NCBI GenBank assembly: GCA_937981765.1
Contig: CALJOM010000004.1
Coordinates: 62,001-126,000 of the forward strand
Source: an uncultured Bacteroidales bacterium
Lineage (GTDB): Bacteria; Bacteroidota; Bacteroidia; Bacteroidales; Salinivirgaceae
Direction of reading: 5' to 3'
DNA length: 64,000 bases
Made by a program: the position numbers and the translations under genes. Below, one piece after another: positions 18,940 to 29,791 of this stretch. Under the pieces are notes generated by a model. That model was not told the origin of the DNA, made no database searches, and saw only the letters and a list, made by a program, of their open reading frames with translations. Every line of letters starts with the position of its first letter. Position 1 is the stretch's first letter.

Positions 18940-20688
18940 CTATTCCATTTTTCTAGTTAGTTGGTTTTTAATGGTTTCAAGCTGCTTGTTTTTATTTACA
19001 TCCCTCAATTCCTTCGCGGTTTTGGTAAAATACTGATGTTTTGAGATAAATTCGAACTGCATCTGATTCCATCGGTCAATATCATCCTCAATGGCCCCGT
19101 TTTCAACTAACTCTTTAAAAAGCATGTTAGAAACCGGAATAAAATCAGCTCTTCCCAGGTAATCCAAATCCGCATCGCAAATTATTTCTTCAAGCTTGTT
19201 TTTTGGATTGGGTGGCAAACGTGTTGCAAAAATTAAATCGCAAATAGTGTTTATCTGTTCCTCCGAGTAGTGGAATCGAGGTAATGTTTCTTTTACAATT
19301 TTTATCCCTAAAAGTTCATGGTCTTTATACCCAACGGTAAATCCTACATCGTGAAACAAGGCCGCTGTTTTTAGAAGCAAAAGCTCTTCGTCGGTAACTT
19401 CTTCCTTCCTGCCAATTATCTCAACCTGATTCACTACATCTATAGTATGTTTAACATTGTGATAATATAAGTTTTTAGGCAACTCGCGTTCAAGTTTATC
19501 AAGAATTTCTTCTTCAAGATCGTCGAAACGAATAAAAGCAAGCTTAACCTCAAATGCTTTATTGGGAACAAGCCCACGATTTTCAACCGAAAGCAGCGGG
19601 CGAAAACCCTCGATGATATACAAATCAATATCTCCCCGATATTTTACCGGTAGTTTACCATAATATTGACACAAGAAATAATCGCGTACTAATTCGTAGG
19701 TACTGGCTGATATACTAACCTTTCCTAACTCTCCGGTAGCTTCCACTCGGTTGGCAATGTTGACCGTTTCGCCCCATATTTCGTATTTCTGACTTTTAAT
19801 ATTTTCAAACTGTGCAAAAACAGGTCCGGTATGAATTCCTATCCTCAATCCCCAAATTTTTTGTCGATCCTCTGGATATTTGCTTTTCATCTGGTTCATG
19901 TATTGCTGCATTTCAAATGCTGCTAATACAACTTCGATTGGGTTGGTCCTGTTTTTCTTCGGAATTCCTCCTGCGCACAAATATGTGTCGCCAATTGTTT
20001 TTATTTTCTTTATGTTAAGCCGTTTTACAGTGTTGTCGAAATAGAAATAAAATTTATCCAAATCATCAATTAAACGTTCAGCATTATCTTGTTCGGTTAA
20101 TTTTGAAAAACCAACCACGTTGCTGAAAAGCACTGTTACCATTTTGTAACGTATTCCCTTATCCTTTTTCTTATCATCTAAACTCTCGGTTTCAACATCT
20201 CGCTGAGATAAAGCCCGTTCATAACTCTCTTGTTGCCGGATAAATTTTTCTGTACTCTCAAACAATTTACTATTTAGGCGTTTCCTTTCATAGGCAAAAC
20301 GATACGATAGACCTAAATAAATTAACAAAACCGATGAAATCAGAAGCAATCCGTAAGCAGTATAAATTTCTTTGGCTGACAGCGATTTACTGACAGTTAT
20401 TTCTCCCCTAACTTTATTGGTATTGTTTATGTCTAGTAAAAAATGATATTTCCCTTCATTTGGAAAAAGAACTAGGGTGTTTACACTATCGATTGGGATT
20501 GTAGGTACTTGGGTTGGCTGAAAATCTGGTTGCTTTCCGGCCTTATGGCTAAAAAGAACAGAATAGTTTCTTACACTAAGATGTTTATTCAATGTGTCTG
20601 GTTCTATATGTATTGAAAAATGTTGCCCTCGGATGGATACTGACATTCCCACCCACATTGCAAGGGTAACATATTTTTTCCAAATCAT
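18940..20688 (-). CDS. Membrane class III nucleotidyl cyclase fused to an HD domain
   Basis: A 582-residue signalling protein: signal peptide (1-21), a short extracytoplasmic domain, one membrane helix at about 109-130, a linker, a class III cyclase domain at about 180-365 and an HD domain at about 395-560. The cyclase domain keeps KTIGDTY with Lys230 and Asp234, the Glu303-containing EIWGETVN, Asn310 and Arg314. The first metal Asp of the usual FxDxxGF motif is Asn190 (LFSNVVGF). The HD domain has H410/H414, HD at 446-447 and D505/D507, as in metal-dependent phosphohydrolases. It may both make and degrade a cyclic nucleotide, or the cyclase part may be a sensor only. The universal stress protein gene follows directly. 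Confidence 0.85.
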   Translation of the reverse strand: MIWKKYVTLAMWVGMSVSIRGQHFSIHIEPDTLNKHLSVRNYSVLFSHKAGKQPDFQPTQVPTIPIDSVNTLVLFPNEGKYHFLLDINNTNKVRGEITVSKSLSAKEIYTAYGLLLISSVLLIYLGLSYRFAYERKRLNSKLFESTEKFIRQQESYERALSQRDVETESLDDKKKDKGIRYKMVTVLFSNVVGFSKLTEQDNAERLIDDLDKFYFYFDNTVKRLNIKKIKTIGDTYLCAGGIPKKNRTNPIEVVLAAFEMQQYMNQMKSKYPEDRQKIWGLRIGIHTGPVFAQFENIKSQKYEIWGETVNIANRVEATGELGKVSISASTYELVRDYFLCQYYGKLPVKYRGDIDLYIIEGFRPLLSVENRGLVPNKAFEVKLAFIRFDDLEEEILDKLERELPKNLYYHNVKHTIDVVNQVEIIGRKEEVTDEELLLLKTAALFHDVGFTVGYKDHELLGIKIVKETLPRFHYSEEQINTICDLIFATRLPPNPKNKLEEIICDADLDYLGRADFIPVSNMLFKELVENGAIEDDIDRWNQMQFEFISKHQYFTKTAKELRDVNKNKQLETIKNQLTRKME

Positions 20689-21909: not shown

Positions 21910-23211
21910 ATGAAAAAAATAGTCTATGTGGGGATGAGTGCAGATTTAATTCATCCCGGTCATATGAACATTATTAAAGAAGCTAGCAATTTAGGTGAGG
22001 TTGTTATAGGGCTTTTAACAGATAAAGCCATTGCAAGTTATAAGCGATTACCTGCATTAAATTATGAACAAAGAAAAGCCGTAGTTGAAAACATTAAAGG
22101 CGTATCAAAGGTAATCCCCCAGGAAGAGCTCGATTATACAAAAAACCTCCGCGCTTTGAAACCCGACTATGTTGTTCACGGTGATGATTGGAAAGAGGGG
22201 GTTCAAAAGCAGACCCGCGAACGGGTAATCGAGGTTTTAAAAGAATGGGGGGGGCAGTTAGTAGAAATACCATACACTCAGGGGATTTCATCAACACAAC
22301 TAAATCAATCTTTAAAAGAAATTGGTACCACTCCCCAGATTAGAATGGAGCGTCTGCATCGATTAATTGCAGCAAAACCGATTGTTCGGGTCCTTGAAGC
22401 ACATAACGGATTAACCGGGCTAATAATTGAAAATACCTCTGTAAATGAAAACGGAATTAAAAAAGAATTTGACGCTATATGGCTAAGCAGCCTTACAGAC
22501 TCTACGGCTAAAGGCAAGCCTGATATTGAGGCCGTTGACTTAACATCAAGGTTACATGTGGTTAATGATATTCTCGAAGTAACCACAAAACCAATTATTT
22601 TTGATGGCGATACCGGTGGTATCCCTGAACATTTTGTTTTTACTGTACGGTCGCTCGAACGTCTTGGTGTTTCCGCAGTTATCATTGAAGACAAAGTAGG
22701 TCTAAAGAAAAATTCCCTATTTGGAACAGACGTTCCTCAAACCCAAGCCACAATTGAAGATTTTTGCCACAAAATATCCCTAGGCAAAAAAGCTCAGGTT
22801 ACAAAACACTTTATGATAATTGCACGAATAGAAAGTCTCATTCTTAAAAAAGGTGTAGACGATGCTATTCAAAGAGCCCAGGCCTACATAGATTCCGGAG
22901 CCGATGGAATTATGATCCATAGCAAAGAAAAAGATGGTCTCGAAATATTTGAGTTTTGTAAACGATATCAAAAATTCTCGAAACGAGTACCTCTGGTAGC
23001 TGTTCCATCAAGTTATAGCCATGTATACGAAAAAGAGCTTGCCACAGCAGGAGTTAACATTGTAATTTATGCTAATCACCTTTTGCGAGCTGCTTACCCA
23101 GCCATGGTAGATGTGGCAAAAACAATCCTTACTCACGAAAGAGCCCTAGAAGTTGAGCCTAAATGTATGGCGATTAACGAAATTTTGAACTTAATTCCAG
23201 GAACGAAGTAA
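21910..23211 (+). CDS. aepX: Cytidylyltransferase-like domain fused to phosphoenolpyruvate mutase
   Basis: PEP mutase makes phosphonopyruvate by forming the C-P bond, the entry step to nearly all phosphonates. Residues 1 to about 135 are a cytidylyltransferase-type Rossmann domain with the HPGH motif at 15-18, ISSTQ near 126 and HGDDW at 90-94. Residues about 145-433 are the mutase, with DGDTGG at 232-237 and the diagnostic EDK-x5-NS at 260-269, which separates true mutases from isocitrate-lyase relatives. Its length, about 433, fits such fusions. The nucleotidyl domain is thought to attach CMP to a phosphonate product. First gene of a five-gene operon; the next starts 4 bases on. The natural substrate of the N-terminal domain is inferred. 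Confidence 0.94.
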
Positions 23212-23215
23212 AAAT

Positions 23216-24355
23216 ATGATTGAACCAAAAGAATTTTTTGAGTGGCTTAACCATCACGATGTAGATTTTTTCACTGGTGTTCCCGACTCATTATTAAAAG
23301 ATTTCTGTGCCTTTGTCACAGACAATGTGGATAATAACAAACATGTTATTGCCGCCAACGAAGGTAATGCTGTCGCAATAGCAGCCGGATATCATTTAGC
23401 CACCGGAAAAATTCCACTAGTCTATTTGCAAAACTCCGGGATGGGAAATACTGTCAACCCCTTGTTATCGCTCGTTGATGAAAAGGTTTACAAAATTCCA
23501 ATTCTTCTCCTAATTGGCTGGCGAGGAGAACCCAACGTTCACGACGAACCTCAGCACATTTCCCAAGGAGAACTCACCCTCCCACTACTCCAAACGTTAC
23601 GAATTCCTTTCACCGTTTTGGATGATGATTCCCAAATTGCTCTGCAACAAGTTAATAACGTTTTGATCAATTTAAAAAGTTCAGGAATTTCCCATGCAAT
23701 TGTTGTAAGAAAGAACACGTTTGAAAAATATCCACTGAAAACAAAAATCGATTTCCCTTATTCAATGACTCGTGAAGAAGCCCTAAGTATAATTGTTGAA
23801 AACACCTCTACCAACGATGTTTTTGTTTCTACTACCGGTAAAACTTCACGAGAACTTTTCGAATGCAGAGCTCAGAAAAATCTCCCCCACCATTCCGATT
23901 TTTTAACTGTTGGATCAATGGGGCATACATCGCAAATTGCCCTAGGCATTGCTTTGGCAAAACCCGACCGCCGTATTTTTTGTCTCGATGGTGATGGCTC
24001 GGTTCTTATGCACATGGGGGGAATGGCTATCATAGGACAGCTAAAGCCTGCAAATCTGATTCATATAGTCATAAATAATGGTTCTCACGAATCGGTTGGG
24101 GGTCAGCCTACTGCTGCATTCAGTATCGATCTCCCAGCTGTGGCCTTGGCCACTGGATACAAGTTTGCTTGTTCGATAACCACAAAGGCAGAGTTAGAGA
24201 AGATTATAAAAAACATAAAAGCTAATATTTGTCCTGCTTTAATTGAAGTAAGAGTAATGATAGGATCACGGGAAAATTTAGGTAGGCCAACCATTAAACC
24301 GGAAAACAATAAGCTCGAATTCATGAAATTTCTTGGGCCAACTATCAAACTATGA
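23216..24355 (+). CDS. aepY: Phosphonopyruvate decarboxylase
   Basis: A thiamine-diphosphate enzyme that decarboxylates phosphonopyruvate to phosphonoacetaldehyde, pulling the unfavourable mutase equilibrium forward. The 379-residue protein opens with FFEWLNHHDVDFFTGVPDSLLKDF, the usual Ppd start. The catalytic glutamate is Glu49 in AANEGNAVAIAAGYH, and the cofactor-binding GDG-x-NN motif spans 259-288, with NNGSHESVGGQPT completing it. The gene starts 4 bases after aepX and belongs to the same operon. Confidence 0.95.
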   Translation: MIEPKEFFEWLNHHDVDFFTGVPDSLLKDFCAFVTDNVDNNKHVIAANEGNAVAIAAGYHLATGKIPLVYLQNSGMGNTVNPLLSLVDEKVYKIPILLLIGWRGEPNVHDEPQHISQGELTLPLLQTLRIPFTVLDDDSQIALQQVNNVLINLKSSGISHAIVVRKNTFEKYPLKTKIDFPYSMTREEALSIIVENTSTNDVFVSTTGKTSRELFECRAQKNLPHHSDFLTVGSMGHTSQIALGIALAKPDRRIFCLDGDGSVLMHMGGMAIIGQLKPANLIHIVINNGSHESVGGQPTAAFSIDLPAVALATGYKFACSITTKAELEKIIKNIKANICPALIEVRVMIGSRENLGRPTIKPENNKLEFMKFLGPTIKL

Positions 24356-24389: not shown

Positions 24390-25529
24390 ATGATGAAAGA
24401 AATGCATCAACTTCTATTTTTCTCATCCGATATCGATAGACTTAAAAGCACAATCCATAGCCTAGAGGCGAATCGTATACTGTTAGTTCGTGGCAAAAAT
24501 TCTTTTTTTACCTCCTCCGCTAACTCTTTTATTAAAAACTTACTAGGCAATCTGCCCTATATTGAATTCTACGAGTTTGAAACTAATCCGAAATGGTTGC
24601 AAATGAAATTAGGGGTGAATTTAGTTAAAGAATATATTCCGGAATTAATAATTGCCATTGGGGGAGGTAGTGTTATGGATATGGCAAAAATGTTGAGTGT
24701 TTATGCCTTCACCCCCCTAGAGGATAGATTGCTAACGTCAAATGAAGGCTTTTCGTTTCGAAAGAAAATTCCAGTTCTAGCAATTCCCACTACCGCCGGC
24801 TCAGGCTCTGAAGCAACTCAGTTCTCTGTCATTTATCACCACAATACCAAATATTCGGTCGACCATCCCCTGTTGCTACCCGATTACGTTTATCTTTCAG
24901 GAAGCTTTTCCGGCAAAGCCGATTCATACACAATTGCAGTATCTGGTCTGGATGCATTGTTTCAGGCTATTGAATCTATCTGGAGTGTTAATTCAACAAA
25001 AGAGTCGGAATTATATGCTTTAGAAGCACTTAAATTATCTTGGAACAACTTACCTTTAGCGATAGAAAAAAAACATCTGGCCCTAGAAAACATGCAATTG
25101 GCAGCGCATCTAGCCGGGAAAGCTATTAATCTAACCCGAACAACTGCTCCCCATGCTATAAGCTACGCGTTTACCACCTTTTACGGTATACCTCATGGGC
25201 ACGCAGTGGCACTAAGTTTCCCGTTTTTTATAAATTACAATTACAATCTTTCTGAGAGGGATTGTAACGATCCACGTGGTGTGGAGTCTGTTAAAAATCG
25301 AATAAAAAAGGTGTTTGAAATTATTGAGTGTTCTCCAGATACAGCCAGCCGTTATATTAACGATTATATAATCAGGCTTGGAGTCGACACTAATATCTGG
25401 CGTTTAATAGAGGGATTTAACCCACTGTTAATTACCCAAAACGTGAACACTCAACGACTCTCTAACAATCCACGAGTGGTAAATACAGAAGATTTGTTTA
25501 ACTTTTTAACCAATAAACATGGTATTTAA
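24390..25529 (+). CDS. Iron-type alcohol dehydrogenase, probable phosphonoacetaldehyde reductase
   Basis: A 379-residue group III metal-dependent alcohol dehydrogenase. It has the dinucleotide motif IAIGGGSVMDMAK at 89-100 and TTAGSGSE at 134-141. Of the metal ligands known from FucO, Asp188, His255 and His269 are present, but the second ligand of the D-x3-H element is Gln192 and the proposed catalytic histidine is Tyr259. Beside aepX and aepY such an enzyme is expected to reduce phosphonoacetaldehyde to 2-hydroxyethylphosphonate, as PhpC/FomC-type proteins do. No aminotransferase for aminoethylphosphonate is present in the operon. A start at the fifth residue (24402) is also possible. Third gene of the operon. 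Confidence 0.85.
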   Translation: MMKEMHQLLFFSSDIDRLKSTIHSLEANRILLVRGKNSFFTSSANSFIKNLLGNLPYIEFYEFETNPKWLQMKLGVNLVKEYIPELIIAIGGGSVMDMAKMLSVYAFTPLEDRLLTSNEGFSFRKKIPVLAIPTTAGSGSEATQFSVIYHHNTKYSVDHPLLLPDYVYLSGSFSGKADSYTIAVSGLDALFQAIESIWSVNSTKESELYALEALKLSWNNLPLAIEKKHLALENMQLAAHLAGKAINLTRTTAPHAISYAFTTFYGIPHGHAVALSFPFFINYNYNLSERDCNDPRGVESVKNRIKKVFEIIECSPDTASRYINDYIIRLGVDTNIWRLIEGFNPLLITQNVNTQRLSNNPRVVNTEDLFNFLTNKHGI

Positions 25530-25539
25530 CTATGCTATA

Positions 25540-26766
25540 ATGGGTTACATTGACCCGGCATCGACAGGCACACTTCTCTACATCATTATTGCCTTGGCAG
25601 CATCGTTCCTGTTTACTGTTCGTGGTATATTATTCAGCCTTTCAAACTTTCTTTTGGGAAAAGGATTTAAAAAACAAAACGATTTTGAAAATGCCGAAAT
25701 AGTGTTCTATTCTGAAGGAAAACAATATTGGCAGGTATTCAAACCAGTTATTTTGGCACTCATTCGTAAAGGATATCCAGTAGTTTATCTCACTAGCTCC
25801 AAAGAGGACCCCGGATTAACTCTAGAAAACACACTTTACAAGTCTAAATATATTGGAAATCTAGCCATTACATCGGTTTACCTTAAGCGACTTAAAGCTA
25901 CGTTTGTAGGAATGACCACTCCCCAACTCGATGTTATGATGATCCGGCGTTCAAAACACGTTAAACACTATGCTCATATAGTACATGCCCCCGTTGATAT
26001 TTTCACCTATCGTAAATTTGCTTTTGATTATTTTGACTCTGTGTTTTGTTCTGGCCCTCATCAAATTGAAAACATACGCAAATTGGAAGAAAAACGTAAA
26101 ACAAGGAAAAAGATACTTTTAGAAACCGGGTTAACCTATTACGACGAAATGATTCAGGAGGTCATTTCATTACCCCCAATTTCTAAAGAGCGTCCCTGTG
26201 TTTTGGTGTCTCCTACATGGAAGGAATATTCTATAATAAACCGATTCGGTGCTAAATTTTTTGAATACTTGCTGGCCGATGATTCCTACGACGTAATTCT
26301 GAGACCACACCCACAAACCTACATAAGTTTTCCAAAACTTATTGCTGAAATTGAAGAACGCTTTTCCAATAATCCAAGATTTTCTGTCGACAAAGAACGT
26401 TTAGGCACATTAAGTATGGCAAAATCAGATATCATGATTAGCGACCTGTCTGGGATTATTTGGGATTATGCTTTTTTATTCACTAAACCTGTATTATTGT
26501 TAAAAACCGATTTCGAATCTATTGAAGGCTTTGAAGGTAGCGAATTAAATCCCCCAATGTGGGAGATGAAGGAACGTAAGCGTATAGGACGCGAGTTTGA
26601 CGAAAACGAACTTCAAAATCTTCCAAAAATTGTAAAAGAAACGTTAAACAATCCGTGTAACGTTAATATCGAAAATCTAAGAAATGAATCGGTGTTCAAC
26701 TTTGGTAACGCCGGTGAAATTGCTGCAGCACAGATTATTGAAATCATTAAATCGTTAAAAAATTGA
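25540..26766 (+). CDS. CDP-glycerol glycerophosphotransferase-like membrane protein
   Basis: From ATG 25540 (preferred over 25519, which would overlap the previous gene by 11 bases) the protein has about 408 residues. The opening MGYIDPASTGTLLYIIIALAA is a YIDP...G motif plus one membrane helix at about 11-30. The rest is a GT-B-like TagB/TagF-type transferase: a His149 in the position of the HG motif (IVHAPVD), TWKEY near 226, RPHP with His257, and SDIMISDLSGIIWDYAF with Asp302. Family members move glycerol phosphate from CDP-glycerol to teichoic-acid-like acceptors. In this operon the likely donor is a CMP-phosphonate instead, by inference from the cytidylyltransferase domain of AepX. Confidence 0.82.
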   Translation: MGYIDPASTGTLLYIIIALAASFLFTVRGILFSLSNFLLGKGFKKQNDFENAEIVFYSEGKQYWQVFKPVILALIRKGYPVVYLTSSKEDPGLTLENTLYKSKYIGNLAITSVYLKRLKATFVGMTTPQLDVMMIRRSKHVKHYAHIVHAPVDIFTYRKFAFDYFDSVFCSGPHQIENIRKLEEKRKTRKKILLETGLTYYDEMIQEVISLPPISKERPCVLVSPTWKEYSIINRFGAKFFEYLLADDSYDVILRPHPQTYISFPKLIAEIEERFSNNPRFSVDKERLGTLSMAKSDIMISDLSGIIWDYAFLFTKPVLLLKTDFESIEGFEGSELNPPMWEMKERKRIGREFDENELQNLPKIVKETLNNPCNVNIENLRNESVFNFGNAGEIAAAQIIEIIKSLKN

Positions 26767-26782: not shown

Positions 26783-29700
26783 ATGAATGTATTAGATGCC
26801 TTACTAGCGCCTTTTTATTTATTAATCAAGAATTTATACATTTCGTTTCTTACTCTAACGAATAGCAACGGGCTCTCTATTTTTCTGCTTAGTGCATCAG
26901 TTTCTATTCTTTTACTTCCTCTTTTTATCTTTATTGAAAAAGCTAAGAAGCGAAACGATTCTATCAAACTGAAAATGAAGCCGCTGATAGATGAAATTAA
27001 ACGCGTGTATTCGGGTCAGGAGCGACACTATTACATTCAAACAATTTATAGACAGCATAATTACAATCCTCTTAGGTCTTTAATTCCTATTTTAAGCCTA
27101 TTCATTCAAATTCCCTTCTTTATTGCTGCCTACAAGTTTTTAAACACTTTTGAACCACTCAAGGGGGCAAGCTTTCTCATTTTAGATGACCTAAGCCGAC
27201 CAGATGGGTTAGTCGCCGGAATGAATCTGTTGCCCATCCTAATGACTGTAATTAATATAGTTACTGCCTATTTTTACACAATCAACGGTAACATCTCTGA
27301 ACGAAAACAAACCTTTTTAGTTGCTGGCATATTTTTGGTGCTCCTTTATAATTTCCCATCAGGGTTGGTTCTTTATTGGACCATGAACAACGTTTTTAGC
27401 TTTTTACGACTACTAATTACCAATCCGGAAGTTTTTAGCTCTTTCTCACACCAGACAACCCTATGTTTTCGATATAAACACATTAAGGCTAAAATATTAG
27501 AAAATAAGAGGCCTGTTATAGCTCTAATTTTTGCCCTATTTGTAATAGGACTGCTTGGTCAACTGCATTGGGCAATTCATCACACATTTAAAGATTTTCC
27601 CTTACGGTTGCTAATGGTGTTTATTTTAACGTTAATAGTAACTTACACGCTAATAGGAATTAATGTCTTAGAAAAGTTATCTCTTAAAGCATTTGCTAAT
27701 CTACCCCCGATATATTTTTATTCTTTGCTATTTTTTGCTACATACTTTCTCTTGGCAGGGGAATTTTATTTTTCAGGTAAAAACATAACTCTCTTATACC
27801 TATCAACTACCTTTTTAGTTCCGGCCCAGATCCTAGGATTTTCCAGAGTGATTTATACCAAAGCATGGGTGCCTAAAATATTAAAAACCGTGACGTTGGT
27901 TATGTGTGTTTTATTACTAATAAGCCAAATAGTTGTTACCTTATATATTCTTTTTGGAGAAAAAGTGGTGTTGACAAATTTTATAATAAGTTCTTTGAAA
28001 TATGAACATTTAGGTGCGTTAGGAATTTTTCTATGCTTTATCTCCCTACCTTATTCTCTGGCAAATCACTCTCCGGTAGGTATTCGATATAATTCGTTAC
28101 ACCATCCAATATACCTTCTATCCATATTGTACTTAACGGGTTATATAACCCTTTGGCAACCACTAATCGTTTTTTCATCAAGTGTAGAAACATTTTCATT
28201 TTCAGCAATAGATATTTTGAAAAACAATGGTTTGCCATTTATTATTTCTTTCCTGATATTAGCCATTGTTTATTATCTTCTTCCACAAAAATTCAAGTCT
28301 ATTGCGGCTTTTATAATGCTGTTTCTAACGTCTTTATTAATATTCAACAGCCAAATTTCACCCCTAAATCTCGGTGCTTTACACGAAAATCGTTTTGCTG
28401 AACATCAAAATCTAGCAGCACCGTTGGTTAAATATTTTATCGATAGTTTAATCCTTATTATCCTATCCATAACCCTATGGCGTTTGTTCATAAAAAATCG
28501 ATGGCTAAAAGCCGTTCTAGTATCCCTGGTTCTTTTAAACCTTTTTATAATAGGAGACAGTTTACACAAAGCAATTAAAACACAGCGATTTTTCCCAGCA
28601 AACATAAATCGTGTAAATAACATAGCATTCTCCCAATTTTCTCCAAACATTGTTTTCTTCCTTGCCGACGCATTTCAGGGTAAATATATCGGTCAAATTA
28701 TGGAAGAAAACCCAGAAATACGGGAAAATTTCACCGGGTTTGTTTGGTTCCCAAACACACTTTCTGTAACAAATTATACCCACTCCTCAATCCCCTCTTT
28801 ATGGGGTGGTGAAAAATATAATGTTGATTGGATGAATTCAGATTCATCAACCACTATAAGTGAAAAATTAACAATGGTTTCACGCCTATTTCTTACATCT
28901 GTGAATCAGAAGGGATATGTACTCTCGGGAAATAAATTCTATGGTTCACAAATCGAAGAAACAGAATATAACTTTATCCCATTATGGCACCCTTTATGGA
29001 AAGACCTATACACCGATATTGTGAAAACCGAAGTGTCAAACTTTTGGTTTAATCGGCTAATAGAAAATGCAATTTTTCAGAGCGTTCCCCTAGCTCTAAA
29101 ACCCAAAATCTATAACAATACCAAGTGGTTTTTTCCAAAAGCAAAAATTCTGGAAAACGATTATGGATGGCACGATCATGCATTTATTAAACTTCTTCCC
29201 AAGATTTCGGTAAACACGGCAAAAGAACCACAATTCATCTATATACATAGCGAAGCTTGCCATCATCCTTGGAAAATTTTAAAAGAAGATGGTACTCTTA
29301 AAGTTAACGTTTCACCTTTAGAAAGTGCCACGTGGTTAATTAAAGAGCTAAACAATTGGATTACGTGGATGAAAAAAAGTGGGGTATATGATAACACAAA
29401 AATTATTCTTGTATCTGATCATGGTCCAAGCTGGTATCATTTCGACAAGGATAGAAATTTCTTGTGGAATGGAATAATACCAGACCCTAATGAACCCAAA
29501 AAAATTAATCCTGAGGACCTATGGAACCTTCAACCCTTACTTATGGTTAAAGATTTTAACTCAAAATCACCATTACTAACTAATTGGACATTAATGTCAA
29601 ACGCAGATGCTTATGGTTTTACTTTTTATGAAAAATACTTGCAGTCGATTGAAGCAAAAAACAGGGAAGTAAAAACATGGTGGACTATTTGGACTGGGCG

Positions 29701-29791
29701 GATGCTTGAGCAAAAAGTTATGAAAATACGGTTCCGATTTAAGGTTCACGAAAATATTTACGATTTAAAAAATTGGAAACGGGAACAATAG
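26783..29791 (+). CDS. YidC/Oxa1-like domain fused to polytopic membrane region and LtaS/sulfatase-type domain
   Basis: A 1002-residue protein of unusual architecture. Residues about 5-212 align with YidC/Oxa1: SILLLPL at 41-47, QHNYNPL, a QIPFFIAAYKFL helix, FLILDDLSRPDG and NFPSGLVLYWTMNN. The groove arginine of insertases, five before the LPL proline, is Ser41 here. About ten more hydrophobic segments run from 243 to 590. Residues about 615-950 are an alkaline-phosphatase-superfamily domain with candidate metal ligands Asp629, His822/His828 (HHPW) and SDHG at 878-881, and a candidate nucleophile Thr666 or Ser668 in NYTHSSIP. Last gene of the phosphonate operon, preceded by a strong ribosome site. 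A transferase placing a phosphonate or glycerol-phosphate group on a surface polymer or lipid is the best guess; a sulfatase or phosphatase is possible. Confidence 0.85.
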   Translation: MNVLDALLAPFYLLIKNLYISFLTLTNSNGLSIFLLSASVSILLLPLFIFIEKAKKRNDSIKLKMKPLIDEIKRVYSGQERHYYIQTIYRQHNYNPLRSLIPILSLFIQIPFFIAAYKFLNTFEPLKGASFLILDDLSRPDGLVAGMNLLPILMTVINIVTAYFYTINGNISERKQTFLVAGIFLVLLYNFPSGLVLYWTMNNVFSFLRLLITNPEVFSSFSHQTTLCFRYKHIKAKILENKRPVIALIFALFVIGLLGQLHWAIHHTFKDFPLRLLMVFILTLIVTYTLIGINVLEKLSLKAFANLPPIYFYSLLFFATYFLLAGEFYFSGKNITLLYLSTTFLVPAQILGFSRVIYTKAWVPKILKTVTLVMCVLLLISQIVVTLYILFGEKVVLTNFIISSLKYEHLGALGIFLCFISLPYSLANHSPVGIRYNSLHHPIYLLSILYLTGYITLWQPLIVFSSSVETFSFSAIDILKNNGLPFIISFLILAIVYYLLPQKFKSIAAFIMLFLTSLLIFNSQISPLNLGALHENRFAEHQNLAAPLVKYFIDSLILIILSITLWRLFIKNRWLKAVLVSLVLLNLFIIGDSLHKAIKTQRFFPANINRVNNIAFSQFSPNIVFFLADAFQGKYIGQIMEENPEIRENFTGFVWFPNTLSVTNYTHSSIPSLWGGEKYNVDWMNSDSSTTISEKLTMVSRLFLTSVNQKGYVLSGNKFYGSQIEETEYNFIPLWHPLWKDLYTDIVKTEVSNFWFNRLIENAIFQSVPLALKPKIYNNTKWFFPKAKILENDYGWHDHAFIKLLPKISVNTAKEPQFIYIHSEACHHPWKILKEDGTLKVNVSPLESATWLIKELNNWITWMKKSGVYDNTKIILVSDHGPSWYHFDKDRNFLWNGIIPDPNEPKKINPEDLWNLQPLLMVKDFNSKSPLLTNWTLMSNADAYGFTFYEKYLQSIEAKNREVKTWWTIWTGRMLEQKVMKIRFRFKVHENIYDLKNWKREQ

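Follow-up and report, generated by a model that had tools for sequence, protein, structure and literature searches.

Genes of the operon and parts of the fusion protein

Within the window, i.e., the whole 64-kb stretch of DNA analysed here, an operon is formed by five genes on the same strand that overlap or lie only a few bases apart. The first (21910..23211, +) encodes a cytidylyltransferase-PEP mutase fusion of Fom1-like architecture, with an N-terminal PF01467 domain (HPGH at position 15) and a PEP mutase part that matched TIGR02320 over its cut-off (E = 4e-125) and carries the motif EDKx5NS at position 260. It is followed by a phosphonopyruvate decarboxylase (23216..24355, +; TIGR03297, E = 2e-147, over cut-off) and by an iron-type alcohol dehydrogenase (24390..25529, +; PF00465, E = 2e-31), a predicted phosphonoacetaldehyde reductase yielding hydroxyethylphosphonate, whose top NCBIfam model was the phosphonate Fe-ADH model TIGR03405, with a score under its cut-off. 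The fourth gene (25519..26766, +; PF04464, E = 1e-8) encodes a TagF-like CDP-alcohol phosphotransferase with an N-terminal membrane helix bearing YIDPAST, and the last (26783..29791, +) encodes a 1002-aa YidC-LtaS-like fusion, recognised from its open reading frame, Pfam matches and an AlphaFold model; its terminal place in a phosphonate operon had been noted in a preliminary description of this DNA. Fom1 makes CMP-hydroxyethylphosphonate (PMC6697681), and the cytidylyltransferase-PEP mutase is predicted from its sequence to form the C-P bond and CMP-hydroxyethylphosphonate. Since the five genes include no aminotransferase, CMP-hydroxyethylphosphonate is the predicted product of the operon. 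None of the five matched a LicD-type final transferase model in Pfam or NCBIfam, and the only cytidylyltransferase matches in the window were the operon's own. A scan of the operon for promoters and terminators found sites no more frequently than in shuffled sequences. Nearby, on the opposite strand, lies a gene for a protein combining an adenylate/guanylate cyclase domain with an HD domain (18940-20688, -).

The TagF-like protein matched only the Cps3D, TagF and TarL profiles, and a Glyphos_transf domain, a GT-B fold and an RxH motif were all present. Its AlphaFold model (pLDDT 89) has a helix at residues 13-45, and its fold matched TarL/TagF at Z 21, a value equalled by UDP-GlcNAc 2-epimerases. 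It has the fold of TagF, TarL and Cps3D and, like them, RxH and DxS motifs; unlike them, it is short and single-domain and has a YIDP(G/A) membrane helix.

The fusion protein consists of a YidC-fold domain (residues 1-215; 26783..27427, +), a polytopic middle (residues 216-600; 27428..28582, +) and an LtaS/EptA-like domain of the alkaline-phosphatase superfamily (residues 601-1002; 28583..29788, +). The YidC-like N-terminus and sulfatase-like C-terminus of the preliminary description were recovered as separate Pfam matches, 60KD_IMP (PF02096) on residues 30-213 (E = 7.9e-26; 91.4 bits against a cut-off of 35) and Sulfatase (PF00884) on residues 621-897 (E = 1.4e-10), and the AlphaFold2 model, built on a 76-member alignment, agreed with both (mean pLDDT 87). 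The NCBIfam model for the YidC/Oxa1 C-terminal domain, TIGR03592, also scored above its threshold (92.2 against 84.3). Hydropathy gave about 11 hydrophobic segments in the middle region, which had likewise been described as polytopic. By hydropathy, the number of these segments is odd in most members of the family, which would place the catalytic domain outside if the C-terminus of YidC is inside. PbgA (6xlp) could be aligned to residues 434-1002 of the model with an rmsd of 15, which is only suggestive of a likeness between the end of the middle region and the membrane domain of EptA/PbgA-type proteins. A chance overlap of YidC and Sulfatase domains was ruled out by the E-values, the 97 members and the fold, and the misassembly of a housekeeping YidC onto a sulfatase was ruled out because isolates, including Treponema berlinense, T. 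ruminis, T. parvum and [Clostridium] aminophilum, carry the fusion together with a separate canonical YidC. The fusion of YidC with an alkaline-phosphatase-superfamily domain is genuine.

An altered groove and an intact catalytic set

Residues 1-216 of the model superposed on the YidC of B. halodurans (3wo7) with Z 19.5 and an rmsd of 2.7 over 207 residues. Sequence alignment to the B. halodurans and E. coli proteins placed the groove arginine at Ser41 of the fusion (26903-26905), as had been proposed. The replacement is general: the 90 fusions readable at this position have Asn (47), Ser (27) or Thr (16) and in no case Arg or Lys, which occupy it in 17 of 18 rows first labelled canonical YidC, one of which (L118) turned out to be a YidC-TagF fusion. 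Other polar residues of the membrane helices are strongly conserved along with position 41 itself, i.e., S37, N/S/T41, Q/E109, N158, T200, N202, N203 and S206. The fusion thus resembles YidC/Oxa1 insertases in its fold, first amphipathic helix and membrane helices, and differs from them in lacking the basic groove residue and the large preceding periplasmic domain, in occurring beside a canonical YidC and in forming a separate clade (100/100). Since every genome checked (that of the window and 13 others) has a further gene for a canonical YidC, the YidC-fold domain probably does not serve as the insertase of the cell.

The catalytic set of the C-terminal domain is conserved almost without exception. 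Asp629 (28667-28669), Thr666 (28778-28780) and Asp879-His880 (29417-29422) were kept in 97/97 distinct fusions and His827 (29261-29263) in 96/97. Thus, Asp629 and Asp879/His880 stand as the metal ligands first suggested, the conserved histidine is His827 and not His828, and between the two nucleophiles considered earlier the choice falls on Thr666, as Ser668 is not conserved among the 97. Residues 619-1002 of the model matched sulfatases, LtaS, YejM/PbgA and phosphonate monoester hydrolases at tied values (Z 19-21), so that fold comparison cannot tell an LtaS-type enzyme from a sulfatase and the residues decide. A threonine at the nucleophile position, in place of Cys or Ser, argues against the formylglycine type. 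Apart from His827 and His880, no histidine is near-invariant, and the aligned fusions contain no second invariant histidine for a two-metal site; this pattern fits the one-metal site that is typical of the LtaS/EptA type. Judged by these residues, the domain appears to be a transferase of LtaS/EptA type with its catalytic set intact. It shares with LtaS, EptA (MCR) and MdoB the alkaline-phosphatase-superfamily domain, the Thr nucleophile and the Asp and Asp-His ligands, and by hydropathy it may likewise lie outside, behind several transmembrane helices, whereas only the fusion has a YidC fold, extra transmembrane segments, a TagF-like partner and CDP-headgroup genes around it. Loss of the basic residue, an intact LtaS/EptA-like domain and the place in the operon all point to a membrane transferase with a role in surface decoration, as originally envisaged.

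Distribution, gene neighbours and alternative layouts

The 97 distinct fusions came from Bacteroidales, Spirochaetes, Clostridia and one Myxococcota bin. When 84,980 species genomes were scanned with a query restricted to the middle and C-terminal part, to avoid bias from YidC, relatives were found in Bacteroidales, Treponema and other Spirochaetes, Lachnospiraceae and other Clostridia, a Myxococcota bin, Steroidobacter and a Thermoanaerobaculia bin, and the great majority had a YidC domain at the N-terminus. No further fusion was found at E = 1e-20 in 395 genomes spread over the whole phylum, which indicates that the fusion is rare in Bacteroidota outside Bacteroidales. In a tblastn search of plasmids, all matches were partial and fell short of 80% coverage; those listed covered ~20% and lay in the YidC part. 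Tandem copies are common, with at least two fusions in 23 of 74 loci. Several tandem copies in three Treponematales genomes (G563, G550 and G616) contain internal stops and are decaying or fragmented. Programmed frameshifting was considered for the tandem copies of L044 and rejected, as the frame breaks are assembly gaps of N.

The fusion closely tracks the TagF-like gene. It was present in 5 of 99 Bacteroidales genomes, including that of the window; all five had a TagF-like gene, compared with 0/94 of those without the fusion (Fisher's test, 1.4e-8, uncorrected for shared ancestry). PEP mutase occurred in the same five genomes and in two more, in one of which (G094) it is followed instead by a capsule-synthesis-type gene. 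Among 119 Treponematales genomes, likewise uncorrected for shared ancestry, 48 had both the fusion and the TagF-like gene, one had only the fusion, one only the TagF-like gene and 69 had neither; the two genes lay within 200 bp of each other in 35. The 43 loci of at least 15 kb contained a TagF-like gene in 35 cases, a cytidylyltransferase in 31, at least one of the two in 37 and PEP mutase in 13, leaving six with neither TagF-like gene nor cytidylyltransferase nearby. In the phosphonate operon of L039 (6615-11307), the dehydrogenase gene and the YidC-LtaS fusion have no TagF-like gene between them. In another Bacteroidales bin (L027:2025-7806, -), two genes for MBOAT-like acyltransferases come after the YidC-LtaS gene, which suggests acylation of the same surface polymer.

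The genes that would supply the headgroup are far less constant. A tie to aepX had been expected, and fusions lying mostly away from aepX and glycan genes had been named as evidence against; PEP mutase was present in just 15 of 74 fusion loci, and the tie was given up. Besides PEP mutase sets, the pair is accompanied by LicC-PhnW fusions, which from their sequence would yield CMP-aminoethylphosphonate, by LicC-CobD-like and LicC-HisC-like fusions, by LicA/LicB/LicC-like sets, probably of CDP-choline type by resemblance, and by TagD-like enzymes with an aminotransferase. The fusions of a LicC-like cytidylyltransferase with a CobD- or HisC-like PLP enzyme (L054, L063, L072, L075 and L076) are predicted to synthesise an amino-alcohol phosphate and to activate it. 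Two loci (L058 and L092) have a cytidylyltransferase-Gfo/Idh/MocA oxidoreductase fusion near YidC-LtaS, and L092 also has a class V aminotransferase; these genes suggest a CDP-linked headgroup. The occurrence of different CDP-headgroup genes around the same pair suggests a constant core of TagF-like, YidC and LtaS-like parts for which phosphonate is one cargo. A phosphonate-specific function was therefore dropped: the kind of function first proposed stands, its phosphonate framing was too narrow since the CDP-headgroup genes of most other long loci are of different kinds, and the wider reading, transfer of CDP-derived headgroups, survives the failure of the aepX tie.

The same three parts, with intact active sites and coupled across phyla, occur in three layouts: a TagF-like protein with the YidC-LtaS fusion, three separate proteins, and a YidC-TagF fusion with a separate LtaS-like protein. 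In Steroidobacteraceae (L078 and L095) and in L093, the YidC-like and LtaS-like proteins are encoded by separate, adjoining genes. The YidC-TagF fusion, P0002 (L148:1179-3086, -), occurs in Lachnospirales, where 16 of 246 genomes had strong matches, with related loci in L159-L173 and cytidylyltransferase genes beside it in 11 of 15 loci. It is commonly adjoined by a gene for a separate 5-TM membrane protein with alkaline-phosphatase-type motifs; five loci have this neighbour by profile, most of them with the Asp, Thr, His and Asp-His set, and the remaining neighbours show a DHG or DHS motif only. A 1113-aa protein joining acyltransferase-3 to a Sulfatase/LtaS-like domain is encoded beside one YidC-TagF gene (L162:2272-5613, -). 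YidC-TagF fusions retain the basic groove residue (Lys or Arg), and residues 50-411 of the TagF-like protein align to residues 258-626 of P0002, so that the TagF-like part begins after its own anchor helix. Phylogenetic analysis placed the YidC domain of YidC-TagF as sister to canonical Firmicutes YidC (100/96) and the YidC-LtaS and split forms in a separate clade (100/100), positions which imply two independent recruitments of YidC.

A candidate relay for surface headgroups

In the Lic and Pnt pathways (LicABC-LicD; PepM-PntC), as in the loci described here, CDP-choline or a CMP-phosphonate is made beside genes for its transfer (PMC6697681), and the operon in the window shares with Pnt a PEP mutase with EDKx5NS and a cytidylyltransferase; in contrast to both, the expected place of LicD is occupied by the TagF-like, YidC and LtaS-like parts. 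The best explanation of this arrangement, which we consider to have about an even chance of being correct, is a three-part transmembrane relay for surface headgroups. Inside the cell, the operon would make a CDP- or CMP-activated headgroup, here predicted to be CMP-hydroxyethylphosphonate. The TagF-like enzyme, held at the membrane by its N-terminal helix, would move the nucleotide-activated (phospho- or phosphono-)alcohol onto an inner-leaflet lipid. The lipid headgroup would then slide to the outer leaflet through the groove of the YidC fold, which is polar and has lost the insertion-linked basic residue, much as in lipid scrambling by insertases. Finally, the LtaS/EptA-like domain would take the headgroup onto Thr666, with one metal held by Asp629, Asp879 and His880 and with His827 touching the phosphonate, and pass it to a surface glycan or lipid. 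In this scheme, we infer the lipid intermediate, its flipping, the acceptor and the exact headgroup.

Two properties of the known enzymes make this the most economical model. LtaS/EptA enzymes take their headgroups from lipids (PG or PE). Lipid scrambling in vitro has been observed for E. coli YidC and for Oxa1, along a path that simulations put through the insertion groove (PMC10491306). Therefore, TagF may load, YidC pass and LtaS transfer. The repeated fusion of the YidC fold to enzymes for surface phosphate or phosphonate headgroups further suggests that it probably carries a lipid-bound group across the membrane, and a conduit suits a fold that is fused now to the inner (TagF-like), now to the outer (LtaS-like) enzyme better than does the membrane platform of the preliminary description, which is only one option among others. 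Several observations count against the relay. TagF itself extends a polymer, YidC-TagF fusions keep their Lys or Arg, so that loss of the basic residue is not essential to the module, and YidC replaces the anchor helix of the TagF-like protein in these fusions, which an anchor role would explain as well; furthermore, the six long loci without either partner nearby and L039 without an adjacent TagF-like gene do not fit.

The main rival is a docking or anchor role, for which the YidC-TagF fusion speaks: the YidC fold would bind or replace the TagF-like helix and join the inner and outer enzymes while the lipid crosses elsewhere. Single hydrophobic helices are the usual binding partners of YidC, the anchor has an almost invariant YIDP motif and the TagF-like part of YidC-TagF starts after its own anchor, but the conserved polar residues in the membrane helices exceed what a passive dock needs, and we regard docking as the less likely account, if a serious one. 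It is rather improbable that the fusion is a polymerase-type LtaS working on PE or PG headgroups after the TagF-like enzyme has loaded the CDP-derived group onto a cytosolic glycan, with both modifying one polymer in turn. PG and PE are donors of LtaS/EptA enzymes, TagF and TarL work on lipid-linked glycans and some Treponema loci lie among genes resembling glycan-synthesis genes; this scheme, however, leaves unexplained both the fusion of YidC to either enzyme and the tight tracking of the fusion with the TagF-like gene. An insertase devoted to a particular membrane partner and combined with a headgroup-releasing hydrolase would be consistent with the intact YidC fold and is nonetheless very unlikely, given the replacement of the basic groove residue in 90/90 readable fusions, the canonical YidC in every genome checked and the biosynthetic nature of the neighbouring genes. 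Least probable is a scavenging formylglycine sulfatase or phosphonate monoester hydrolase: such enzymes match the fold at similar Z, but the nucleophile is Thr in 97/97 and not the Cys or Ser of C/S-x-P-x-R, and the operon is biosynthetic.

Returning to the relay, its broader form holds that surface-tailoring enzymes acquired the YidC fold on at least two independent occasions as a lipid-headgroup flippase or scramblase, giving rise to a general machine, spread over several phyla, that exports and transfers CDP-derived headgroups (phosphonates, phosphocholine and aminoalcohol phosphates), a generalisation that we put forward tentatively, with its chances slightly short of even. A literature search found no paper linking YidC to PEP mutase, TagF-type genes or sulfatase fusions, and no description of a TagF-like, YidC and LtaS-like module. 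The steps after C-P bond formation have been termed enigmatic (PMC6697681), and the fusion module is a concrete candidate for the poorly known transfer step of bacterial phosphonate tailoring, one that seems common to phosphocholine-type decoration in gut Clostridia and to Treponema. The relay would fill a gap in the pathways that decorate surfaces with phosphonate and phosphocholine. The module also offers a natural test of the physiological use of lipid scrambling by insertases, since the fold is here a permanent companion of lipid-headgroup enzymes and one lineage no longer has the basic residue linked to insertion.
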